The translations under genes and the position numbers were made by a program. DNA of 46,101 nucleotides from Candidatus Saccharimonadota bacterium. GTDB lineage: Bacteria; Patescibacteriota; Saccharimonadia; Saccharimonadales; Saccharimonadaceae. Below, piece by piece: positions 1-46,101 of the stretch; the stretch's first letter is position 1; every line of letters begins with the position of its first letter. The DNA lies in the NCBI GenBank assembly GCA_017514975.1, contig JAFWIF010000003.1:1-46101 (forward strand), read 5' to 3'. The notes beneath the pieces are model-generated. The model saw nothing but the letters and a program-made list of their open reading frames with translations, was not told the DNA's origin and searched no databases.

Positions 1-141
1 CGCCTATAATCGGAGGAATAATCATTCAGCCAAATATGAATGGAACCACAGTAGGCGGCACATCCATAAGAGGTGTTTTTGGTACAATACAAGGCAATAC
101 TCCAAACACCAATTCGTATGTTTATTTAAAGTGTTCGCCTC
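1..141. repeat. Terminal direct repeat (copy 1), circular-assembly overlap
   Basis: Bases 1-141 are identical to bases 45961-46101. The repeat lies inside one open reading frame, and the frame at the right end continues exactly into the frame at the left end, so joining the copies restores a gene. An exact 141-base overlap is typical of a circular contig from a short-read assembler with a maximum k-mer of 141. I infer a circular or circularly permuted molecule, not a biological terminal repeat. Confidence 0.93.
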
Positions 142-2466: not shown

Positions 2467-2883
2467 TTACATTGGGTGCACGTTTTGTAGCAATGCCACA
2501 ACAGTCTTAAAGTGCGATTCGATTCGGCTAAGCAAATCGATGTCGCCATTGTCGAGCGTTGAGCTCATTGTATTTATGACCTCATCAAGAGTTATGACAA
2601 AAGCCTTACATTCCTGCGCGAGCTTCTGGACTGAATAGCCTTCGCCGCTTGCAGTTTTAAGCATTTCGATTGTCAGCGAGTCGATTGTTTCAAAGCTCGG
2701 TACTTGCATTTGGTTGTACATAAAGTACTTTTCCTTGATTTCGTCTATGAACTCGTCGATAGGCTTGGCTACGGCGTCCATGTATGTATGAATGCCCAAG
2801 AAGTCGGGCCCTGCGTAGTTGTAGTGGATTGTTTTTGCGTATTTGCGCAAAAATTCCAGTCTTGCGATAATATTTACCATCAT
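2467..2883 (-). CDS. dps: Dps-family ferritin-like protein (ferroxidase)
   Basis: The product is 138 residues from the ATG at 2883 (SD AAAGGAAA just upstream). Residues 20-51 carry the Dps ferroxidase ligands in exact spacing: His20, His32, Asp36, Asp47 and Glu51, matching E. coli Dps H51, H63, D67, D78 and E82 (intervals 12, 4, 11, 4). The surrounding pattern HYNYAGPDFLGIH is typical of Dps helix B. Dps dodecamers oxidise Fe(II) with peroxide, store iron and in some species coat DNA; here there is no obvious lysine-rich tail for DNA binding. At 138 residues it is a little shorter than usual (150-170). It is the last gene of the early arm, next to the terminator. Protection of phage or host DNA from Fenton damage is inferred. 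Confidence 0.82.
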   Translation of the reverse strand: MMVNIIARLEFLRKYAKTIHYNYAGPDFLGIHTYMDAVAKPIDEFIDEIKEKYFMYNQMQVPSFETIDSLTIEMLKTASGEGYSVQKLAQECKAFVITLDEVINTMSSTLDNGDIDLLSRIESHFKTVVALLQNVHPM

Positions 2884-2884
2884 T

Positions 2885-3145
2885 TTATTTCCTTTCTTTT
2901 GAATACTTAGATGCACTCCGATTAAAAACGTCCCAAGCATGGATTGCTTCTTCCCGCATTTCGCGAGGGGTTCTTCCTGTAAAGAAGCGCGTTCTATTGT
3001 TGCATTGCGAACAGAAGACACTCACCACTCGGTGACCGTCTATTCCTGCGGTTTCTTGGATAAAGGCTTCCCCGCCACAAAAGCATTTGTGGTTAGGGAG
3101 CGCGGATATTACGCCTGATGTATTGAAGGATTTTTTGTTTCTCAT
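2885..3145 (-). CDS. Lar-like zinc-ribbon protein
   Basis: The product is 86 residues. CFCGG at about residues 21-25 and CSQC at about 45-48 form a four-cysteine zinc ribbon, and the C-terminal pattern EEAIHAWDVFNR matches the Lar (restriction alleviation) family. Members modulate host type I restriction in Rac prophage; most phage homologues are untested. It ends 2 nt upstream of the dps start, so the genes are probably co-expressed. Confidence 0.7.
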   Translation of the reverse strand: MRNKKSFNTSGVISALPNHKCFCGGEAFIQETAGIDGHRVVSVFCSQCNNRTRFFTGRTPREMREEAIHAWDVFNRSASKYSKERK

Positions 3146-3158
3146 ATTTTATTACAAA

Positions 3159-4577
3159 TTAAAAAGGTTGTCTGTCATCATAATCATTAGGGCTTTTGTG
3201 AGAGAAATCAAGCTCTCTTGCGCCAGCCTTAAAATAAACGGATTTGGAGCTTTCGTATCGGGTCGCCTGTTTGTTGAACTGGGCGATTTGGGTTAGTGGG
3301 CACGCGCCATGTCGGTCTTTGCCCTTAATCACCTCTATGTCGTATTTCGGCTTAGGTATGCCATCATCTACGCCCATAGGATTAAGCAGAATGATTTGGT
3401 CGGAGTCTTGCTCGATAGAGCCGCTATCGCGCAGGTCGCTTGGTCTTGGCTTGCGATTCTCGTATTCGACAGACCTATTTAGCTGCGCGAGCATTACGAT
3501 TGGCAGATTGTTTGATTTTGCCATCTTCTTAATCGAGCGACTAATATGGGCAATTTCCGATTCGCGAGTGCCTTTCGATTGCGTCGCTGAAATGAGCTGC
3601 AAATAGTCGATGCCCACGAATTGGATATTGTGCCTCTTCTTCATATGTCGAACTTTGAGGGCGATTCCCTCAACAGTCATATCAGACGTTTCCACGACGA
3701 AAATGGGGAGACTCTTTATCACCGCAAAGGCTTTCTGAACCGCTATCCTTTCCTGAGTGCTTAGCCGATTGTCCATTATGCGCGGAAGAGGAAGATTTGT
3801 TAGCATTCCGACAAAACGCTTTGCAATTTCTTGCTCGCTCATCTCAAAGCTAAAAAACAGACAAGGCGTCGCATAATTTATCGCCATTTCAAGAATAGAC
3901 GATAGCAGGATTGACGTTTTGCCAGTGGCAGGTCGCCCCGCGATTGTAATCATTCGTTGGGGATAATAGCCATCAATCAAATTGTCCAATACGTCGAGAC
4001 CTGTCTTGATTGCCTTAGATTGCCTTTTATCTGGGGGCAATTCTATCTCGGCTTCCACTTCGCTTGCGATGCGCTCAATGCTATTGTTAATGTCGGTCGT
4101 TTCGACGTCCAAACCCATACACCTCTCTTGGATGTATTCCAAGTGCGAGCGCGGGTCTTCGTCCTTTTCCAGTTGGGCTTTGTCTATTGTTTCCGCGCAA
4201 ATGGTTATGAGGTTTCGCAAGAAATATTTGTCCTTGATGATTTTCAGGAAATGCCCTGCGGAAGCCGAAGTCTCTACCCTCTGGGAAATACGGAACACCT
4301 CTGCCATGCCGCCAATGGCTTCGAGCTCGTTCTTTTTTTGGAGCTTATCAGATAGCAAGACGCAATCGCAAGGTTTGCCTTCCGACGCCACTTCCATAAT
4401 CGCCATATAGACGATTCGGTTTTTTTGCGAATAGAAGTATTCAGGCGTAATTTTGCGCGACATACACATATTCGCCACAGTGCCATCGTCGTCAATCATT
4501 AGGCACGCAAGCAAGCCTTCCTCGGCGTCTTGATTGTGGGGCATATCTTGCCCAAAAAGACTAATGCCTTTGGTCAT
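3159..4577 (-). CDS. dnaB: Replicative DNA helicase, DnaB family
   Basis: The product is 472 residues, normal length for DnaB. The N-terminal collar domain spans about residues 10-125 and the RecA-like ATPase about 185-455. Walker A is GRPATGKT (214-221), the H1a region is FFSFEMS (241-247) and Walker B is FVGIDYLQL (320-328). The protein would unwind DNA ahead of the replisome as a hexamer. Its ATG overlaps the stop of the upstream replication gene as ATGA, so the two are coupled, as with helicase and loader/initiator pairs in other phages. Confidence 0.95.
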   Translation of the reverse strand: MTKGISLFGQDMPHNQDAEEGLLACLMIDDDGTVANMCMSRKITPEYFYSQKNRIVYMAIMEVASEGKPCDCVLLSDKLQKKNELEAIGGMAEVFRISQRVETSASAGHFLKIIKDKYFLRNLITICAETIDKAQLEKDEDPRSHLEYIQERCMGLDVETTDINNSIERIASEVEAEIELPPDKRQSKAIKTGLDVLDNLIDGYYPQRMITIAGRPATGKTSILLSSILEMAINYATPCLFFSFEMSEQEIAKRFVGMLTNLPLPRIMDNRLSTQERIAVQKAFAVIKSLPIFVVETSDMTVEGIALKVRHMKKRHNIQFVGIDYLQLISATQSKGTRESEIAHISRSIKKMAKSNNLPIVMLAQLNRSVEYENRKPRPSDLRDSGSIEQDSDQIILLNPMGVDDGIPKPKYDIEVIKGKDRHGACPLTQIAQFNKQATRYESSKSVYFKAGARELDFSHKSPNDYDDRQPF

Positions 4578-5371
4578 AGCGACAATTCCCCGTTTCTAAT
4601 GTATGCCGCCACCTTGCCAAACAGAATGCGCTGTTGCTCTTCGGGAATGTCTTTGTATGAACTGGGAAGATTGAATAAGTCTTGCGGGTTAAATTGTTGG
4701 CAAAATTCGCGTTTAAACGTCTTTTCGTCTGAAAGGTATGCAATTACCCTCTTTTCAATTTCCGAGCCGTCCTGAGGGCTCCCAGAGGGGTTGCTGGGGA
4801 TTTGCGGAGCATTGAGCTTCCCGCCCCTGTCGATATAATTGTTTCTCCACGTCTTTTTCATAGCGAGTTTCCAATCGCTCATAGTTTTGGTTGAGCGACC
4901 GACTCTCCAATGGACGTTCTCATAATGCGCGAAGAATTTTTCGCCTTCTCTACGGGGAAGCCCGACTTCAAGAGCGTAATCTATGCACTCTTGCTCGGTT
5001 GGCGGCACAAATTTCTTTGCGGCCTTCGCTTTGACGGCTTCTTCCTTTGCCTTTTTCTCTTCGGCAAACGCCTTTTCTTCTTCTGGCGTAGGAGGAATCC
5101 ACCCCTTCCCCTTGTTTTTGAGTTGTCCGCCCTTTCTGCCATAGTCTTTTGCCTTTGAGCAAAAAGTGATATAGCTATCACGCTCTTTGGTCAGCTTGTC
5201 GGAGATTTGGTACCACCAGTCGCCTACCCTCTCGGATATCGGCGCGACCTCTGGTGTTTCCCCTACGAGCACAGACAAAAGCAAATCCATAGCATTCGCC
5301 TTCTCTTCTGGCGAAAAGCGAGCGGCAACAAGGCGAAAATCTTCGTCGGAGATTCTAATTTTAATAGCCAC
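4574..5371 (-). CDS. Replication initiation / helicase-loader-like protein
   Basis: The product is 265 residues, starting at GTG with a strong SD (GGAGGTG, 5 nt away). The N-terminal third resembles phage replication proteins with the RKGGQLKNKG pattern. A central lysine/glutamate-rich linker (about 95-120) leads to a region at about 120-180 with PPTEQECIDYALEVG and, later, MSDWKLAMKKTWRNN, a motif common in phage DnaD/DnaT-like replication organisers. It lies directly upstream of dnaB with an ATGA overlap. Role as an initiator or loader is inferred from motif and context. Confidence 0.65.
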   Translation of the reverse strand: MAIKIRISDEDFRLVAARFSPEEKANAMDLLLSVLVGETPEVAPISERVGDWWYQISDKLTKERDSYITFCSKAKDYGRKGGQLKNKGKGWIPPTPEEEKAFAEEKKAKEEAVKAKAAKKFVPPTEQECIDYALEVGLPRREGEKFFAHYENVHWRVGRSTKTMSDWKLAMKKTWRNNYIDRGGKLNAPQIPSNPSGSPQDGSEIEKRVIAYLSDEKTFKREFCQQFNPQDLFNLPSSYKDIPEEQQRILFGKVAAYIRNGELSL

Positions 5372-6369: not shown

Positions 6370-6888
6370 TTATTCCTTTATGTTTTTCAAAATCCAAGCG
6401 ATAACATCAACCGTCCAGCCATTGCCCAACATCTTGTATCTCTGGGAATCGCTTACAGATGCCGTATAATTGTCGGGAACGGTTTGAAGCCTTTCGCATT
6501 CAATCGGCGTAAGCCTTCGGATAAAATTGTTTGTCAAAACGCCATGTTTATCGAGCGCGGTGAGTGTGTAGAATTTCGAGTGCGGCGGCTTGAATCTGCG
6601 CCCATTCTGCCGTTTCTCAACCCTATCTGGCGTCAGGCAAGGAAGCGCATACAAACCTGTTTTTGCGCCCCATCCGCCGCCATTGGCGCAAAGCGTCACT
6701 GCCTTGTCATAAATCTTGAAGATGTCGCTTGCTTGTCCCGCCTTCCCAATATGGGCTATCTTTTTGCGAGCAACTTCATTTTTGCAAATAGCCACTTGAA
6801 GCGTCGGTTCAACGCAATATTTCGCGTCTACTTCTTCTTCCAGAATGTCCTCAACGGTAGAGGGGTTCTCTATGCCGCAAATGGGCAA
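6370..6888 (-). CDS. C5-cytosine DNA methyltransferase, C-terminal fragment (frameshifted)
   Basis: This frame carries the C-terminal half of a C5 methyltransferase: the target-recognition region, motif IX (RRLTPIECERLQTVPDNYT) and motif X (MLGNGWTVDVIAWIL). In the same frame, before the ATG at 6888, the sequence reads AQDRKRLYWTN, the expected motif VIII, which is the continuation of the upstream ORF. So this is not an independent gene but the second part of one split by a one-base shift near 6930-6935. The C-terminal 172 residues alone cannot bind AdoMet or catalyse. Confidence 0.75.
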   Translation of the reverse strand: MPICGIENPSTVEDILEEEVDAKYCVEPTLQVAICKNEVARKKIAHIGKAGQASDIFKIYDKAVTLCANGGGWGAKTGLYALPCLTPDRVEKRQNGRRFKPPHSKFYTLTALDKHGVLTNNFIRRLTPIECERLQTVPDNYTASVSDSQRYKMLGNGWTVDVIAWILKNIKE

Positions 6889-7357
6889 TGGGATATTTGT
6901 CCAGTAAAGACGCTTCCTGTCTTGCGCCGAAAAAACGAGAAGAATTTATCATTACAGGACGAACGCCCAAGTGCTCCGTGATAATGTTTTGGTATTCTTG
7001 CTTCATTACGACGTTTTCCAGCAAGAAATATCTCGGCTTGCATTCCTTTAAAAGCCTCACGAACTCAAAAAATAGCTTGCTTCGCGGGTCTTCAAAATTC
7101 AGACGCTTGCCCGCAACCGAAAAGCCCTGACAGGGGCTACCGCCCAAGAGCAAGTCTATCTGGGGGAGTTCTTCGCCCTTTACATTGCAAACGTCGCCAA
7201 GCTGTTTCGTGTCGGGAAAGTTAGTCATCGCAACCTTCATTGCGTACTTGTCAATCTCAGACGCAAAATAGTTCTCGTAGGAGATGCCAGCCCTTTGCAG
7301 GGCGAGCTGTCCGCAACTCATGCCATCAAAAAGACTTAATACGTTTTGTAGCTTCAT
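6851..7357 (-). CDS. C5-cytosine DNA methyltransferase, N-terminal part (frameshifted)
   Basis: The product is 168 residues with motif I (LSLFDGMSCGQLAL, AdoMet binding), motif IV GGSPCQGFS (catalytic Cys76 in PCQ) and motif VI (ENV at 114-116). After INSSRFF (137-143) the frame leaves the family pattern and ends in an Arg/Leu-rich tail. Removing one T from the minus-strand T6 run (plus A6, 6930-6935) gives SAQDRKRLYWTN and continues into the downstream ORF, restoring about 330 residues. Functional meaning: phage DNA methylation against host restriction, possibly switched off, phase-variable, recoded or a sequence error. Start overlaps the rusA stop (ATGA). Confidence 0.85.
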   Translation of the reverse strand: MKLQNVLSLFDGMSCGQLALQRAGISYENYFASEIDKYAMKVAMTNFPDTKQLGDVCNVKGEELPQIDLLLGGSPCQGFSVAGKRLNFEDPRSKLFFEFVRLLKECKPRYFLLENVVMKQEYQNIITEHLGVRPVMINSSRFFGARQEASLLDKYPIAHLRHREPLYR

Positions 7358-7809: not shown

Positions 7810-7963
7810 CGTCGAAAACCTTGTCCATTAAAGCGTCCATATGCCTTTCAATAAGATTAAAAATTGCACAAACCACATAGTGTATCGGCTTTAAAATTGC
7901 GTAACATAAAAACAAAACCACCATTAAAAAGCAAGAGATTTTGTTGATTATTTTCTTCTTCAT
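7802..7963 (-). CDS. Small membrane protein
   Basis: The product is 53 residues from the ATG at 7963 (SD AAAGGA). A basic start (MKKKIINK) precedes one or two hydrophobic segments (ISCFLMVVLFLCYAIL and IHYVVCAIFNLI) and an acidic tail. It overlaps both neighbours by a few bases. Probably an inner-membrane microprotein; function unknown. Confidence 0.6.
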   Translation of the reverse strand: MKKKIINKISCFLMVVLFLCYAILKPIHYVVCAIFNLIERHMDALMDKVFDDE

Positions 7964-8586
7964 TTTTTGTCCTTTCCCTTTGATTCTCTTAAAGCCGTTT
8001 CGCATTTTTCGTGTATCCCCATAATCAACTGCGCTCGACTTCCCGAAATGTCGAATTTAACGCCGCGCCCAAGCATATGGTCCACAACTGCACAGGAGCA
8101 AAGGTATCGAATCGCGTCAATCTCGTTCTCGTCGAGGGCGAGCGGAGAGAATGGGTCGGGAGCCTCGTAAACGTGAACCTCTTTGCCGTCGGGGAACGTC
8201 AATGTTGCTTTTTTTGCATTCGTCGTCCCGAAGGCGTGATTTTTCCATAGCTCTTTTGCTTCATCAAGCGTATCGCAAAAAGCCGTAGACATCGCGCATT
8301 CACTGCACTCAATTCGCCATCGGAACCCATCTGGACTCTTGCTTGCTATTGCTAATGCTTTTTTGCCGCAAATGCAAGGGGCTATGGTGTTGTCGCTTAC
8401 ATAAAATAGCTGTTCGCTATTCCAGCTTTCGACCGCCTTCCACCAGTCGATGTCAACATCGCCTTCCGCCCCGCATTTTTCGTTTTTGCAAGCCGCAAAA
8501 AAAAGAGTCCCGTCATTAAACTCTTTGCCTCTCATTTCGGCTTCCCCTCCGCAGAACGGGCAAGGCTTCAATTCGCTATTTTCCAT
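7960..8586 (-). CDS. Protein with two Lar-like zinc ribbons
   Basis: The product is 208 residues. Domain 1 (about 1-60): CPFCGGEAEM, then CKNEKC and a following W/WN pattern, as in Lar restriction-alleviation proteins. Domain 2 (about 68-118): CICGKKALAI, then CSEC and ELWKNHA, a divergent second copy. The C-terminal part (about 120-208) is not recognised and contains DENEIDAIRYLCSCAVVDHM. Lar proteins alleviate type I restriction, but most homologues are untested. SD AAAGG precedes the start. Confidence 0.7.
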   Translation of the reverse strand: MENSELKPCPFCGGEAEMRGKEFNDGTLFFAACKNEKCGAEGDVDIDWWKAVESWNSEQLFYVSDNTIAPCICGKKALAIASKSPDGFRWRIECSECAMSTAFCDTLDEAKELWKNHAFGTTNAKKATLTFPDGKEVHVYEAPDPFSPLALDENEIDAIRYLCSCAVVDHMLGRGVKFDISGSRAQLIMGIHEKCETALRESKGKDKK

Positions 8587-12867: not shown

Positions 12868-13746
12868 TTATTTATTTGTTGTGGTGTCAAAAATTACATT
12901 CATGGGGTGCTCGCCACTTCCCCAAAACCTCGGGAAGTCGCCATTCCATTTCTTGATTTTAAGTTCGTCAAGAGCAAGCGGATTTTCTTTTAAGGCTGTC
13001 CCAATTTCTCGGATAGCCTCGGCGTTTGCCTTTGCCTCCATTAGAATTGCATCTGCCCGCGCTTGCGCTTGCTCTCTTACAGCATTCGCCGCGCCCATCG
13101 CTTCTATCTTTGCGGTCTCGGCTTCGGTCTCCTTTTGCTTTTTGACAAAGATTGCTCTTTGCGCCTCTTGGTCTTGTACCATCTTTTTCTCGATAGCTTC
13201 ATTAAGTTGCTTGGATAGGTCAATGTCGGATATGACCACATTAGAGACTGAGAATATTTCGTATTCGGCAAGACGTTTTTCGTATAACTCATTGACCGCA
13301 ACGCGAATTTTGTCTCGGTTTTTTACAATCTCTTCGCTATTCAGGTCTTTGCAAACTTCCTTAAAGCATTCTTGGGCTATGGGGAAGAGAATTGTTTGGG
13401 TTGGGTCCTCCGTATACTTAGACGCGAGCAATTTCACTTTGTCGGGCGTATAATTAAATATTATGTCAGATGTAATTATAACGCTTTGCATATCTTTTGA
13501 GAATACATCCAGTTTGGCGTTTAGCTTTTGGGTAGACACCTTGTATGTCTTTATTTTTGTAATAAAGGGAGCTTTCCAGTTAAAGCCGCTATCCATTACA
13601 CCCCCCTGTATTTGCCCAAGAGTTATGCGTATTCCTCTTTCGTCGGGGTCTATAATCGTATACGAACTTCCAAGCAAGATGAAAATTGCCACGATTACGG
13701 AGATTAGAATGCTTATGCACCCTGTTTGTTTTAGTTCACTATTCAT
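12868..13746 (-). CDS. SPFH/band-7 (prohibitin/stomatin-like) membrane protein
   Basis: The product is 292 residues. A transmembrane segment lies at about 10-30 (ISILISVIVAIFILLGSSYT), followed by the SPFH domain with the hallmark DPDERGIRITLGQIQGGV and later NEAIEKKMVQDQEAQRAIF; a long Ala/Glu/Lys helix (about 195-255, EAETAKIEAMGAANAVREQA) provides the oligomerisation coiled coil. Bacterial members (HflC, HflK, QmcA) form cages around membrane proteases. A phage copy could tune host membrane proteolysis, as lambda does through HflKC; that is speculation. SD AAAGGAA precedes the start. Confidence 0.85.
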   Translation of the reverse strand: MNSELKQTGCISILISVIVAIFILLGSSYTIIDPDERGIRITLGQIQGGVMDSGFNWKAPFITKIKTYKVSTQKLNAKLDVFSKDMQSVIITSDIIFNYTPDKVKLLASKYTEDPTQTILFPIAQECFKEVCKDLNSEEIVKNRDKIRVAVNELYEKRLAEYEIFSVSNVVISDIDLSKQLNEAIEKKMVQDQEAQRAIFVKKQKETEAETAKIEAMGAANAVREQAQARADAILMEAKANAEAIREIGTALKENPLALDELKIKKWNGDFPRFWGSGEHPMNVIFDTTTNK

Positions 13747-14382: not shown

Positions 14383-14517
14383 TTATTTTTCTCCTTTCTC
14401 GTCAGCCATGCATACTACCATAGTTATGGCAATCATTGCGGGAAGCACTATTTGGTCCTTCAAAACAAGCCCGATGGCAATGCTTGCAACTGATAATGCT
14501 AATATTGCTTTAATCAT
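14383..14517 (-). CDS. 44-residue membrane microprotein
   Basis: ATG at 14515-14517, stop TAA at 14383-14385. The translation MIKAILALSVASIAIGLVLK is a hydrophobic helix, followed by a second (VLPAMIAITMVVCM) and a charged tail (ADEKGEK) whose codons form the SD of the next gene. It overlaps the upstream gene's stop by 8 nt. Two short membrane helices; function unknown. Confidence 0.55.
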   Translation of the reverse strand: MIKAILALSVASIAIGLVLKDQIVLPAMIAITMVVCMADEKGEK

Positions 14518-15427
14518 TTGGGATGCCTTTCTGCCCTCTGCTTGCGCAGAACTCGTTGAACCTCTTGACGATTAAGGCGTTTGCCTCCTCTTGCGTGTTA
14601 AGGTTGCGCATATTCCTGTCGTTATATGAGCCGCCAATAAAAAAGGTTCCCTCTTCCTGCATTGCTTTGAGAAAATCCTTTTCAATCTCGCCTCTCGCGT
14701 CGCCACCAATTTCAATGTCGCCGCCAAGTCTGCCCTCGTGGATTTCGGTAATGGCAAAGCAAAGAACGCGCATGAACTCGGGGGTCATGTAGAATGCAAC
14801 CTCGGATATGCACTGGGTCTGCGTATTGAGTTTGAAAAACTCGTACATATTTCTCCCTCCCACCAGATTGTGGCTATCATGGATGTACATAATATCTACG
14901 TCCAAAATGTATCCCATCTGAATAAGGGTATTTATTAGATTGACGATTGCGACGCCTCGGCGACGAATTGTGCCAGTGTCGATAGAGCAATCAAACGTAA
15001 TATCTACGCACATTTTAAGCATTCTGTGCGGCTCGGGGTATCCGTGAGTCAAGCAGCACTCTGGAACGTCTTCGACTACTGCGCCCATATCATAGGCGAC
15101 GCCTTCGACGTCCATTCCAATGCCCGTGTTGTCCTCGGCATACAAGCCCTCGTCTTCAATGCCGTCCAGAAAAGCCTGCGTGTATTCGGGATTGCCGTAT
15201 TTCAGGCGTTCCATCACTTGGGCGATGGTACACCCCCCCGACCATTCGCGATGTTCTGCGTCCTTGTTCCTCTTTATGGTTTTCATTCTCGGGAACTCGG
15301 CAAAGCCTTTGCGCAAGTATTCTGCGACACCTGCGGTCGAGAGGAACCCAAGCAAATTGGACGTGGGCTTGTCGCCAGTCTTGCTCCAATACCTCTCTTT
15401 AAAGGTTGGCGGCGTTGTATTAGTCAT
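14510..15427 (-). CDS. DUF7192/vWA-like partner of the adjacent AAA+ ATPase
   Basis: The product is 305 residues. The N-terminal part contains REWSGGCTIAQVMERLKYGN, and the central part MCVDITFDCSID followed by RRRGVAIVNLINTLIQMGY resembles a von Willebrand A-like fold with a DxxxDxS-type metal site, the pattern I associate with phage DUF7192 proteins. The start overlaps the stop of the MoxR-like ATPase by 8 nt. MoxR ATPases typically work with vWA proteins as chaperones or metal-insertion machines, so the pair probably forms one complex. Confidence 0.6.
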   Translation of the reverse strand: MTNTTPPTFKERYWSKTGDKPTSNLLGFLSTAGVAEYLRKGFAEFPRMKTIKRNKDAEHREWSGGCTIAQVMERLKYGNPEYTQAFLDGIEDEGLYAEDNTGIGMDVEGVAYDMGAVVEDVPECCLTHGYPEPHRMLKMCVDITFDCSIDTGTIRRRGVAIVNLINTLIQMGYILDVDIMYIHDSHNLVGGRNMYEFFKLNTQTQCISEVAFYMTPEFMRVLCFAITEIHEGRLGGDIEIGGDARGEIEKDFLKAMQEEGTFFIGGSYNDRNMRNLNTQEEANALIVKRFNEFCASRGQKGIPND

Positions 15428-16637
15428 AGTATTCTACCTCCGATACGACTTCGCCTTCCCTATTTTCGCCCGACGGCTTGTCTTCGCCGCCCTGCCAAGA
15501 GCCAGCATAGCTCGCGTCCGCAAGTCTGCTTACGGTTTCTTCGTCAGCCTGTTCGCCGTCTTTGCTGTCGCCATTCTCGGCATTGCCAGACTGCGCCTCG
15601 GCTTCCTGTGCCTCGGCTTGCGCCCTTTCTTCTTTGCTCCTCTTTATTTCGTCTTTTAGTTCCTTCTTTGTAGGCATCTTTACGCCTTTGAGCATTCTCT
15701 CGCGAAGGCTTATCTCGACGCCCTTAAATACTGTCATATCAAGGGCCTCTTCGACCGTAAAGCCTTCTTCAAGCAAGTCTGCGCCGTCCATAGAGGCGCG
15801 AGGCGAAACAATATGCTTTATGCCCTGCTCCAAGACGTTTTGGCGAATTGCGCGTACAATTCGTAGCCATACTCGGTTCTGCGTCAAAATCTCTTCGAGT
15901 GCTTCGTCATAATCGACGTTGACCACAATAAAGCGGTCGAGAGTTGCGGCGTCCAGACGATTGCGCCCTACATAGTCAACTGTCGCGCCTCTGCCGTATG
16001 TATTGCAAGCGCAAAGGCAGATGAAGTCGGGGTGCTTGTCCACCACCTTATCGGGGAATGAGCAATGCCCGTTTGCCAAAAGCGAGTTCAGGATTGTGAT
16101 TACGCCAGCATGCCCGCAGTCAAATTCGTCCAAGAGCAATACGCCGCCTTTCTCATAGGCTTCGCGAATGATTGAGGGCATATATACCCCGTGAGCATTG
16201 ATGAAGCCAAGCAAGTCTGATTTCGTGGTCTGCAAGCCTACGGAGAAGGGATAAAACGGTCTGCCTATGGCATTGGCGATTGTCTTAACAAGCAATGTCT
16301 TGCCGCCGCCCGCCGCGCCTACAAGCATAACATTCTTTTCCTTGCGCTTGCCGCTCTTAATAATTCTCAAAATGGTGTCGAAGGCGGAGTGCACAAGAGC
16401 TTTTTTGGGGGCTTTGGGCGTGCCGATATTAACAATGCGCTTCCCCATATTTTTGACGCTATCAATTTGGTCTGTAAGCGTCTTCACAAGCTCTGTTGCT
16501 TCGTCTTGCTTGGCTTCGAGCTTTGCTTTGGTTTCGGCAAAAACCCTGTCAAAGGAGTATTTAGCCTCGGACGATATGTCGCGAATGATTGAAGTTATGG
16601 CATTCGACAATGCCTCATTTGTATTTGCTGTATTCAT
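15420..16637 (-). CDS. AAA+ ATPase, MoxR/CobS-like
   Basis: The product is 405 residues. A coiled N-terminal region (about 20-70) precedes an AAA_5-type ATPase: Walker A GAAGGGKT (107-114), Walker B LLLDEF (167-172), sensor 1 in ICLCACNTYGRGA, and an arginine-rich finger region in GRNRLDAATLDR. The C-terminus (about 330-405) is an acidic, Ala/Glu/Gly-rich tail. The family remodels partner proteins with a vWA subunit, here encoded next. In phages its role is unknown; a link to particle assembly or host takeover is speculation. Confidence 0.82.
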   Translation of the reverse strand: MNTANTNEALSNAITSIIRDISSEAKYSFDRVFAETKAKLEAKQDEATELVKTLTDQIDSVKNMGKRIVNIGTPKAPKKALVHSAFDTILRIIKSGKRKEKNVMLVGAAGGGKTLLVKTIANAIGRPFYPFSVGLQTTKSDLLGFINAHGVYMPSIIREAYEKGGVLLLDEFDCGHAGVITILNSLLANGHCSFPDKVVDKHPDFICLCACNTYGRGATVDYVGRNRLDAATLDRFIVVNVDYDEALEEILTQNRVWLRIVRAIRQNVLEQGIKHIVSPRASMDGADLLEEGFTVEEALDMTVFKGVEISLRERMLKGVKMPTKKELKDEIKRSKEERAQAEAQEAEAQSGNAENGDSKDGEQADEETVSRLADASYAGSWQGGEDKPSGENREGEVVSEVEYYD

Positions 16638-23084: not shown

Positions 23085-23253
23085 AGGGAAGACAGAAGAG
23101 ACTCTTTCGAGAGAGGAGCTGAAAGTGATAGCCCTCTTGATAGAGAAGGCGCATTCTGATTGCTTGAAGAAATACGGGGGCGAGAGGAAAGTGGCGGACG
23201 TCTTGAACTACTGGTGGATTTTGTTGGAAAAGATTAGGAGGATGGCGAAGTGA
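23077..23253 (+). CDS. 58-residue protein between the terminase genes
   Basis: ATG at 23077-23079 overlaps the end of the small-subunit gene by 8 nt, and the stop TGA (23251-23253) overlaps the GTG start of the large subunit as GTGA. The product starts MGRGKTEETLSREELKVIAL, is charged and helical and ends with WWILLEKIRRMAK. Overlap at both ends shows it is part of the translational chain. It may be a packaging accessory or simply a coupling gene; no family recognised. Confidence 0.65.
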   Translation: MGRGKTEETLSREELKVIALLIEKAHSDCLKKYGGERKVADVLNYWWILLEKIRRMAK

Positions 23254-24764
23254 CCTTATTGGATAGCCTTGAAAGCAAGAGCAAGAAGCTCCAAAAGCAG
23301 AAGAAATACGACGAGGAGAGCGAGCTTGATTTGGATGAAATGCTAAATTTCCCAGAGGAGACTCGGGCGGTTTTGATTTCGTCGCTTAAAGCGTTCATTA
23401 GGTTTTTCCATTTGGCGATTCATAGGACCGAGTTTAGGTTTGAACCGTTCCACGATGTGATTATTGAGGCATTTGAAGATTTGGTGCTTGGAAGGAACGA
23501 AAAGCAGAATCTGGCGATTTGCATTAGCCCAAGAACTGGAAAATCTACGATTACGCAATATGCAATTACTTGGGCATACGCAATAAACAAGATGTGTAAT
23601 TTCATTGCGACATCGTACGCAGAGAGCCTGACGAATAAGTTTTCGGGCGAGATTATGGAAATAATGCGCAACAAGTACTACAAGAGGCTTTTTGGCGTAG
23701 AGATAAGTAAAGACACCGCCGCGAAGGATATGTGGAAAATCAAGGAAGGCGGCTTGTTCAGGGCCCCGCCAGCGCAGGGCACGATTGTAGGGTTCGGCGC
23801 GGGCATAAGAGGCTCTGGATTCGGCGGATTCATCGTAATGGACGACTTTATTAACCCGAAATTTGCGAATAGCGACGTCGAAAAGAAAAACAGCATCGAG
23901 CTTTACAAGGCGTCCATTAAGACGCGCCGAAATAACCTCGCGAAAACGCCTATGGTGGCAATTATGCAAAGAGTCGCGCAGGACGATTTGATTGGCTACA
24001 TCAAAGAAAACGAAGCGGACGATTGGCGATTTATCGAGTTTCCCGCGATAGAAATCGACGAAAATGGCGAGGAAAAGAGCTTTTGGGAAGAGCAATACCC
24101 TATCGCGAGCCTTAAAAAGATGCGCGTCCAAGACCCCTTCGGCTTTGCGGCAAACTATATGCAAAAGCCTATCCCCTTCGGCGGCGAAATGATTAAGGAA
24201 GAGTGGTTCGGGTTCTATTCTCACAATCCAATGACCACCCCCTACCCTTACAATCGCGTTTTTATTTCCGCCGACACTGCATTCAAAACCACAGAGTACT
24301 CCGACTACACCGCAATCGGCGTGTGGGGCTTGACGCAGGACAAAAAATTGCATCTCTTGGACCTTGTGCATAAAAAGATTGACGCGACGTTGCTCAGGGG
24401 GACAATGATAAACCTGTGGAATAAATGGGCTAATAACCCAACTATAAGGAGGCCCAGCGCAATCTACATCGAAGACAAGGCGTCTGGTATGCAGCTTATC
24501 CAAGACCTAAGAAGACTTGACGGATTGCCTGTTTTGCCCCATAAGACGAAAAATATTGACAAAATGATGAGATTGAGCGATGCAATACCTCAAATCGAAA
24601 GCGGAAACATACTCTTGCCCATTAACGCAGGCCACCCAATCTCACGCGAAGTCATAGCGGAGGCGGTGCAAATTTCACGAGACATGACCCATAAGCACGA
24701 CGACATTATGGATATGATAGCGATAGCAATCGAAGAGGCCTATGTGCGCAGAGGTTTCTTCTAA
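23250..24764 (+). CDS. terL: Terminase large subunit
   Basis: The product is 504 residues from GTG at 23250. The N-terminal ATPase has Walker A SPRTGKST (93-100) and Walker B FIVMDD (194-199). The C-terminal RNase H-like nuclease shows the acidic triad in ISADTAFK (Asp342), IYIEDKASG (Glu408/Asp409) and HKHDDIMD (Asp484/Asp485). It pumps DNA into proheads and cuts concatemers. Full-length and normal. The upstream 58-residue gene overlaps its start by 4 nt. Confidence 0.96.
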   Translation: MTLLDSLESKSKKLQKQKKYDEESELDLDEMLNFPEETRAVLISSLKAFIRFFHLAIHRTEFRFEPFHDVIIEAFEDLVLGRNEKQNLAICISPRTGKSTITQYAITWAYAINKMCNFIATSYAESLTNKFSGEIMEIMRNKYYKRLFGVEISKDTAAKDMWKIKEGGLFRAPPAQGTIVGFGAGIRGSGFGGFIVMDDFINPKFANSDVEKKNSIELYKASIKTRRNNLAKTPMVAIMQRVAQDDLIGYIKENEADDWRFIEFPAIEIDENGEEKSFWEEQYPIASLKKMRVQDPFGFAANYMQKPIPFGGEMIKEEWFGFYSHNPMTTPYPYNRVFISADTAFKTTEYSDYTAIGVWGLTQDKKLHLLDLVHKKIDATLLRGTMINLWNKWANNPTIRRPSAIYIEDKASGMQLIQDLRRLDGLPVLPHKTKNIDKMMRLSDAIPQIESGNILLPINAGHPISREVIAEAVQISRDMTHKHDDIMDMIAIAIEEAYVRRGFF

Positions 24765-33965: not shown

Positions 33966-35471
33966 ATGGCAATTCCAATCAGTGAATATGTAAACATACA
34001 GAGCTATGCAACAGGTGGCGCGTTGGTAGCTCAGAAAATGACAATAGGCAGAGTCCTAACAACCAATGCGCTTGCCCCTATGGGTTCTGTGCTTGAATTT
34101 ACAAGCGCGGCAAACGTAAGGGCGTACTTCGGCTCGCAGTCGAAGGAATACGCATTTGCAGACAAGTATTTCAAGTGGGTAAGCAAGCTATTTACGAAGG
34201 CTAAGCTCCTTTCGTTTGCTCGCTATACTCCTACTGGTACCGCGATAGGCGCGAGCCTCATAAGCGGAATTACTGGTTTTAGCCTTTCTGCATTGAAGGC
34301 GATTACCGACGGTTCCTTCACTCTTGAATATCTTGACCCCAACACTGGGCTTAGGACTTGCGAGCTATCAGGAGTAGACTTTTCAAGCGCGGCATCACTC
34401 GGAGATGTGGCTACTGCGTTGCAGACCTTGATTCAGGCGGTGGAAGGATTTGACACCGTTACGGTTGAATATAACGGCAATCTCAACGGAGGCCGCTTTG
34501 TAATCACCAACACTGTTGCCGAAGAGGGAAGATTTAATCCTGCGGCTGGGACTGTCGCTGTTGCGCTTGGCATTAACGCCGCTTCCGCGCCTATCGTATC
34601 CGAAGGCAACCCCGCGACCAACACAATAGCCGAAGAAGTTGACCGCATAATGGATATAAGCGACAACTGCTTTACGTTTACATTCCTTGACGCGCAGACG
34701 GAATCCACTTATGTAGAAGTCGCCTCTTGGAACCACGACCGCAATGCAGACTTTATGTTCATGGTTCAGGCTGAAAATCTTGATGAGCTTTTGGATTTGC
34801 AGATTGCTCTCAAACCGTTTGACTTCTGCTGGGTGCAGTATTCCGCTCCGAATGAAATGCAGATTTACGAAGGTATGACGGCTCTTGCCAACGTGGACTA
34901 TACGCAAGACCATGCGGCAATATCCTTTATGTATCAGCCTTTCCCGAATGATACGCCCGTAGTCGAAAACTTGGCTCTCAAACGCAGACTCGATGCGCTA
35001 AACATTAACTACCTCGGCTTGACTGGCAAAAACATTGACCCGTTCTTGCAGAGAGGCATGTGTCAAGGTTCTATTCCCGACGCAACGATTTGCGCCAACG
35101 CAATTTGGCTCAAAGACCAAATTATTGTTTCGGTTATGAGCCTCTTTATGCGAGCAAATGCAATCTACGCCAACGCTTCCGATTCCGCTAAAATCGCGGC
35201 GGCTTGCAATCAGGTATGGGAGCAAGGCCTTAGGAATGGTTGCATTCTTGCGGGCAAGACTCTGACCAACGATGAGAAGGCGTCCATTGAAGCCCTCACT
35301 GGCGACAATATGGCGTGGAACACAATCGTAAATCAGGGCTACATCTTCACCTACGAAATCTCGACCGCATTGGACGGCACGAAGTATTTTAGCTTCCGCC
35401 TAATCTATGGGGCCTGCGACACAATTCGCAAGGTTGAAGGCACAAATATTGCAATCACAACTACCGCATAA
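33966..35471 (+). CDS. Tail sheath protein, DUF3383 family
   Basis: The product is 501 residues (SD ATAGGAG). It has the DUF3383 plan: N-terminal ISEYVNIQSYATGGALVAQ, an inserted domain at about 95-215, and the C-terminal conserved part with RRLDALNINYLGLTGKNIDP and FSFRLIYGACDTIRKVEGTN. The sheath shows that the virion has a contractile tail. Confidence 0.9.
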   Translation: MAIPISEYVNIQSYATGGALVAQKMTIGRVLTTNALAPMGSVLEFTSAANVRAYFGSQSKEYAFADKYFKWVSKLFTKAKLLSFARYTPTGTAIGASLISGITGFSLSALKAITDGSFTLEYLDPNTGLRTCELSGVDFSSAASLGDVATALQTLIQAVEGFDTVTVEYNGNLNGGRFVITNTVAEEGRFNPAAGTVAVALGINAASAPIVSEGNPATNTIAEEVDRIMDISDNCFTFTFLDAQTESTYVEVASWNHDRNADFMFMVQAENLDELLDLQIALKPFDFCWVQYSAPNEMQIYEGMTALANVDYTQDHAAISFMYQPFPNDTPVVENLALKRRLDALNINYLGLTGKNIDPFLQRGMCQGSIPDATICANAIWLKDQIIVSVMSLFMRANAIYANASDSAKIAAACNQVWEQGLRNGCILAGKTLTNDEKASIEALTGDNMAWNTIVNQGYIFTYEISTALDGTKYFSFRLIYGACDTIRKVEGTNIAITTTA

Positions 35472-45098: not shown

Positions 45099-46101
45099 AT
45101 GAAAAGCATCAAATATATCTTAACAATGGGCTTGGGCTTTCTTGCCGCAAGCGTGACAAACGCCGCTCGGTACACCCCGCCAGAGAGCGGCGGACCTGCG
45201 ACCGTAATGGTGAATGAAAGCAACGTCTTAACCACGCCTACTGCGTCGGTTTTCATCAACGCGAATTTCAATTCCATTACACCGCAAACAGACGCGGGAC
45301 TTCTTGGGTCGGCCTTCAATGGGGCTTCCTCGATTTCGGATTGGAGAATAGACACCACATGGATGGACGCCAATTACGCCAAGAATCTAACCGCCTCTAC
45401 TGGTCTCTTGCTGGATTCTGGCACGACCTATAACGGCAAGACCGCCCGTACGATTACAGTAGACAGGGCGTATATTGAACAAGTCATACGAGAGACCGCC
45501 TTTGTGGTGGAAAATTACCAAATCCTAATTGATACGTCGCCAAGTATAACGGGCTATGGGGCGAGAAGCCGTGATTTGACAATACGCACTCCATATTCTT
45601 TTCACGCATCGGGCGACTATCGCATGGTTAAGGGCAGTTCTACGGGCAATACTGATTATCAAACAAAGTATAGCTATGTCGACCAGTACGCCTCTTTGAC
45701 GTATTGGACGGACGCAGAATTTAAGGTTTTGGACGCGAACGGGAACCTCATTTACTGGGTATCTACGCAATGGGGCGCACAAATGGGTGCAGATTACGCT
45801 ACGCACCCTGCCGCAGACCTAAACGCGAAGATTTACTATACGTCGCCCAACAACGAGGCGAATGGCGAGGGCAAAGGCCGCGAATGGATTGAGTATGTCC
45901 ATAACGACGTTGACGCTCGCACGATTTACGAGCACGCCCAAACTGTTACAGGGGCTCTGTCGCCTATAATCGGAGGAATAATCATTCAGCCAAATATGAA
46001 TGGAACCACAGTAGGCGGCACATCCATAAGAGGTGTTTTTGGTACAATACAAGGCAATACTCCAAACACCAATTCGTATGTTTATTTAAAGTGTTCGCCT
46101 C
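45099..46101 (+). CDS. Exported protein with Sec signal peptide, 5' part (continues at 1-227)
   Basis: The 5' portion of a 362-residue product. The N-terminus MKSIKYILTMGLGFLAASVT plus NA is a convincing Sec signal peptide with an A-x-A-like site, unusual next to tail fibre genes. The mature part is rich in Thr, Ser, Asn, Tyr and Gly and looks beta-rich (YRMVKGSSTGNTDYQTKYSY, SLTYWTDAEFKVLDANGNLI), resembling surface or fibre-tip proteins. It may be an exported host-surface factor, or a virion part with a misleading hydrophobic start. Reading continues across the contig ends. Confidence 0.75.
   Translation, partial: MKSIKYILTMGLGFLAASVTNAARYTPPESGGPATVMVNESNVLTTPTASVFINANFNSITPQTDAGLLGSAFNGASSISDWRIDTTWMDANYAKNLTASTGLLLDSGTTYNGKTARTITVDRAYIEQVIRETAFVVENYQILIDTSPSITGYGARSRDLTIRTPYSFHASGDYRMVKGSSTGNTDYQTKYSYVDQYASLTYWTDAEFKVLDANGNLIYWVSTQWGAQMGADYATHPAADLNAKIYYTSPNNEANGEGKGREWIEYVHNDVDARTIYEHAQTVTGALSPIIGGIIIQPNMNGTTVGGTSIRGVFGTIQGNTPNTNSYVYLKCSP
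45961..46101. repeat. Terminal direct repeat (copy 2)
   Basis: Second copy of the 141-base end repeat, identical to bases 1-141. Removing one copy gives a genome of 45,960 bp. Confidence 0.93.

Follow-up and report, generated by a model that had tools for sequence, protein, structure and literature searches.

The stretch of DNA analysed here (the window, 46,101 nucleotides) is contig JAFWIF010000003.1, from a genome bin of a Candidatus Saccharimonadota bacterium, and the gene under study occupies positions 2467-2883 of its reverse strand, where it encodes a putative Dps-family mini-ferritin of 138 amino acids (P0001). The open reading frame (ORF) of 138 codons begins with ATGATG, its ATG lying at 2883, and ends with a TAA stop at 2467. 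Direct reading of the sequence shows a ribosome-binding-site-like stretch, AAAGGAAATAAA, ahead of it (2884-2897, minus strand), which overlaps the 3' end of the upstream ORF. Residues His20, His32, Asp36, Asp47 and Glu51 of the product are spaced 12-4-11-4 (H-x11-H-x3-D-x10-D-x3-E), which is the Dps ferroxidase pattern; the equivalent ligands of E. coli Dps are H51, H63, D67, D78 and E82. An earlier reading of the sequence alone, hereafter the original prediction, had claimed exact five-ligand spacing, and this claim was upheld: the pattern has a single match across the six frames of the whole window, arose in none of 200 rounds of shuffling over 452 ORFs, and was present in three of the sequences obtained by shuffling the Dps protein itself 200,000 times. 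As judged by sequence comparison, profile and family matches are evidence separate from ligand spacing, namely, PHROG 3636 (the phage Dps family, labelled 'DNA binding protein') at E=4e-11, NCBIfam Dps at E=1.4e-5, under its curated equivalog cut-off, and Dps chains of the PDB, searched by sequence, at E=4e-4.

Relatives of this protein proved difficult to retrieve. Single-protein searches returned no relative from the viral and genome contig sets, and one weak phage match elsewhere. Relatives were obtained through a DNA pattern for the five ligands, followed by a search with the alignment of the first group. The His-Tyr-Asn version of the pattern was present in five viral contigs and the His-Trp-Asn version in at least 120; the alignment search gave 23 viral loci and six bacterial-genome loci, with 26 distinct proteins overall, and all 26 proteins of this alignment (A7) match PHROG 3636. 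Four of the six bacterial-genome loci have head, portal or terminase genes beside them; for the remaining two, L176 and L179, the neighbouring genes look like those of a phage, which is less firm evidence. Since the search was built on signature peptides, which cellular members could have escaped, the restriction of this branch to phages holds for the material found so far. The window protein shares with the branch, referred to here as HYN-type, the K-x-I-H-Y sequence at the first ligand, a length of about 130-140 amino acids and a phage gene context. Among the 23 Asp, Glu and His residues of the window protein, those invariant in the 26 relatives are exactly the five ligands. The search patterns contained H20, or H32 plus D36, and the five seed loci were recovered through the full five-ligand motif; D47 and E51 fall outside both patterns, so that their conservation is an independent part of the evidence. 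Two further observations concern these relatives. First, Pfam DUF5856 (PF19174), a family of unknown function, matches 12 of the 26 HYN-type proteins (best E 1.2e-6), and may itself be a Dps relative. Second, in viral contig L152 an apparent S-adenosylmethionine synthetase (3891-4988, plus strand; PHROG 1569, with no listed function) is encoded immediately upstream of Dps.

The predicted structure agrees with this assignment. AlphaFold2, given a 42-sequence alignment, returned a single-chain model with a predicted local distance difference test score (pLDDT) of 95.5 and a predicted template modelling score (pTM) of 0.90, in which helices A, B, BC, C and D span residues 2-22, 28-55, 64-79, 85-105 and 112-135. 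Four helices form a bundle, the short BC helix sits in the loop joining B and C, and the C terminus adds no fifth helix. This is the Dps layout, and the ferritin-like fold that structure prediction was to check was thus recovered; prediction without an alignment left the helix layout unchanged, at low confidence (62). Dps-family chains made up 50 of 50 among the matches listed by Foldseek against the PDB, with template modelling (TM) scores, normalised to the query, of 0.70-0.80, and VIA-align to Dps gave Z of about 15-16 over 128-135 residues. The mini-bacterioferritin 9qq5 scored on par (Z 15.7), so the fold by itself cannot tell the two apart, and the window protein also has a weak match to DUF5856. 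These two points would suit another ferritin-fold protein, of bacterioferritin or DpsL type with an intra-subunit site, or a fold without metal chemistry. It is the ligands that separate the Dps from the bacterioferritin type: the relatives keep all five ligands of the inter-subunit Dps site without exception, and there is no conserved ExxH pair, E122 and H124 being two positions apart and variable in the relatives, which makes this alternative very improbable. The original prediction, that the phage encodes a Dps whose ferroxidase site is complete, is supported by the motif, the profile matches, the predicted fold and the five ligands kept in 26 relatives.

To place the protein among known Dps, trees of 72 and 66 rows were built from the window protein, the HYN-type branch and bacterial, candidate phyla radiation (CPR)-type and other phage Dps. 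The window protein groups with the HYN-type branch, apart from all sampled bacterial, CPR-type and other phage Dps (support 100/99). This grouping persists after omitting long rows, and a placement with the phiEco32/pSal-SNUABM-01 type was rejected by the approximately unbiased (AU) test (p 0.0015). The tree thus speaks against recent acquisition from the sampled groups. The phylogeny proposed earlier as a way to find the donor therefore yielded a phage-associated branch and no bacterial donor; none can be named, because the window protein's own branch is very long and the bacterial sample is small and chiefly plasmid-borne. We regard the HYN-type as a divergent, phage-associated branch of Dps, of which we found no earlier description.

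The surrounding sequence is that of a phage. Comparison of its termini revealed that positions 1-141 (plus strand) are an exact 141-bp overlap with 45961-46101, which indicates that the assembly is circular and complete, at 45,960 bp. The gene set includes terminase, portal, head protease, major head protein and tail sheath; PHROG and profile matches place the large terminase, which marks a tailed phage, at 23250-24764 and the tail sheath, which marks a contractile tail, at 33966-35471, both on the plus strand. By its gene content, then, this complete assembly is a contractile-tailed phage. Terminase- and helicase-based searches found no close relatives of it. The Dps gene comes last in a leftward arm containing a DnaB-like replicative helicase upstream of it (3159-4577, minus strand; profile matches), an exonuclease, pieces of a DNA methyltransferase and other genes. 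Between this arm and the rightward one converging on it lies a strong hairpin, GAGGCTCGCGG/CCGCGAGCCTC (2395-2426, no strand assigned; -22.7 kcal/mol, z -5.0), with a T-run on the plus strand, which is probably the terminator of the rightward arm and perhaps also terminates the leftward arm.

Only one base separates the Dps gene from an upstream gene for a Lar-like zinc-ribbon protein of 86 amino acids (2885-3145, minus strand; Pfam Lar above cut-off). The original prediction described Dps as the last gene of the early arm, paired with this Lar-like gene; its terminal position stood, and the link to Lar is one of adjacency only. A further Lar-like gene lies in the window at 7960-8586, and no Lar beside Dps was noticed among the relatives, in which no search aimed at Lar neighbours was made, so the pairing looks incidental. 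Elsewhere on the minus strand, a C5 DNA methyltransferase at 6370-7357 is split between two frames that overlap (168 and 172 amino acids), which may reflect a frameshift, a programmed event or an assembly error; the phage encodes an SPFH/Band 7 protein at 12868-13746 (Pfam Band_7 E 4.5e-28); and at 14510-16637 an AAA_5 ATPase (PHROG 249) adjoins a DUF7192 protein, a pair whose role is unassigned.

Gene order also bears on where the protein would act. A virion-borne Dps, packed into the head and entering the cell along with the genome, would guard DNA at entry, and in several branch relatives (L152, L153, L155, L157, L160, L168 and L169) the gene does sit just ahead of the terminase and portal genes; in the window it does not. 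Fusions of Dps domains to head-module proteins also exist. The protein encoded at L033:809-2026 (minus strand) has 405 amino acids and a C-terminal Dps domain (Pfam Ferritin, PHROG 3636), with an N-terminal part that weakly matches head-module families, and lies downstream of portal- and minor-head-like frames; likewise, three BFVD proteins named 'Prohead protease' match the Dps model (A0A6J7WIS1, A0A6J7XDU5 and A0A6J7WPK9). This fusion and these entries suggest, at the sequence level, that some phages carry Dps in the head. The window gene, however, sits in the opposite-strand replication arm, away from the head genes, and its product has neither a fusion partner nor a visible packaging signal, so that we consider delivery in the virion unlikely for this phage.

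We consider it likely, from the sequence and the model, that the gene product is a Dps-type mini-ferritin without a tail, one that oxidises and stores iron and lowers Fenton chemistry, and does not compact DNA directly. A dodecameric cage that oxidises and stores iron best suits the intact ferroxidase site, and this reading is favoured over DNA compaction because the protein is acidic and without the basic tail that E. coli Dps has at its N-terminus. Subunits would pair, ligands from two neighbours making one di-iron site, and twelve of them are predicted to assemble into a hollow cage, whose sites would oxidise Fe(II) using peroxide or oxygen and within which the oxidised iron would be kept as a mineral. 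Production from the leftward arm would leave the infected cell with less free iron and less Fenton chemistry, which may spare replicating phage DNA and host machinery.

The other role usually associated with Dps, in which the protein mainly binds or condenses DNA, of the host nucleoid or of the phage, and oxidises iron only secondarily, is suggested by the family name and by the label of PHROG 3636, and in some species tail-less Dps proteins still bind or protect DNA. Nevertheless, the window protein begins right at helix A, is without a basic tail at either end, and has a calculated isoelectric point (pI) of 4.96, with 12 Lys/Arg against 19 Asp/Glu. Such a DNA-binding tail occurs in only part of the Dps family and does not define it. 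The branch relatives are comparably acidic (pI 4.3-5.6) and mostly start at helix A, of the acidic and His residues only the metal ligands never vary, and the PDB title of A. tumefaciens Dps describes DNA protection without binding. We thus hold a mainly DNA-condensing protein to be quite unlikely. Among the roles originally proposed, oxidising and sequestering iron fits best, and compaction of host DNA has weak support at best.

Several observations weigh against an iron-oxidising Dps. The Pfam Ferritin match is sub-threshold (E=0.01), which, taken with the PHROG, NCBIfam and PDB matches, points to a divergent Dps that a gathering-score Pfam scan would overlook. The neighbour of the first ligand is Tyr, as opposed to Trp in most Dps; identity to the branch relatives is just 19-31%, and the C-terminal half is weakly conserved. 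Moreover, the alignment behind the confident model included ordinary phage Dps, and the leftward arm is probably early, judging by strand, neighbours and gene content only. If the iron-oxidising Dps is nonetheless correct, phages with their own iron-oxidising cages suggest that infection can be limited by free iron and peroxide. In addition, some 26 compact, tail-less sequences, which among acidic and His residues have kept only the ferroxidase site, make the contrast between iron chemistry and DNA binding in phage Dps testable.

The host remains a candidate one, resting on binning and compatible composition. The genome bin holding the phage contig is 885 kb, in a phylum with genomes of about 1 Mb that appears Patescibacteria-like in size and content, and the phage is compatible with the bin in guanine-cytosine (GC) content (46.1%, vs 45.6-47.2%) and tetranucleotide profile. 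The bin carries a three-repeat CRISPR array with a 37-nt repeat and Cas1 nearby (G000:C18:61865-62030); its spacers gave no match to the phage (best 18-20 of 29-30 bases), and a search of 44 further genomes from the genus did not recover the repeat. No 16S gene was found in the bin. Regarding cellular Dps, the bin's sole Pfam ferritin match reads as a rubrerythrin, and L003 and L004, of the same order, were rejected as weak PHROG 3636 matches to the second half of the profile only, within frames of 483-520 amino acids. There was no convincing PHROG 3636 Dps in the other genomes of a 199-genome set of relatives, and six of 286 other genomes of the phylum have one, a rarity that is notable if the binning is right. 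It is tempting to speculate, although we regard it as doubtful, that this protein and its relatives form a phage-adapted Dps lineage long apart from cellular Dps, and that the phage here supplies an iron-detoxifying cage to a Patescibacteria-like cell, which once infected would have the viral Dps as its only one, the host lineage being almost always without.

Phage-borne Dps is already well known, in more than 200 phage records and in print: 225 records in the collection have a tblastn match to the Dps of pSal-SNUABM-01, and phiEco32 gp67 is annotated as 'member of the Dps family'. Compared with the cellular family (E. coli, Listeria innocua, M. smegmatis Dps1 and Dps2), the window protein is alike in its BC-helix fold, five-ligand spacing and a size near the shortest for Dps; it differs in having Tyr for Trp by the first His, no DNA-binding tail and a shorter C-D region, and identity in structural alignments is about 9-20%. 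The PHROG 3636 Dps of phages (phiEco32 gp67, Salmonella 7-11, pSal-SNUABM-01, Streptomyces phages) are likewise phage-encoded, with identical ligands, and several lie near replication and nucleotide genes as in the window, but they cluster with bacterial Dps in the tree, unlike the window protein. A Dps accompanied the purified virions of Privateer (PMC7881722), and proteomics of SU10 detected one as well (PMC4281155). The ferritin-like proteins of Lactobacillus phages, described as homologous to a Lactococcus lactis protein (PMC6669764), are also phage-encoded, Dps-like and near replication genes, although a Lactobacillus phage entry of BFVD matches the window model at E=2.4e-2 only. Finally, Benler et al. 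(2021), who cite the Lactobacillus phages as earlier cases, reported DPS in 'Gratiaviridae' as well as in 36 further genomes of gut phages and proposed a role against oxidative stress (PMC8008677); compared by description, these are phage Dps with the same proposed role.
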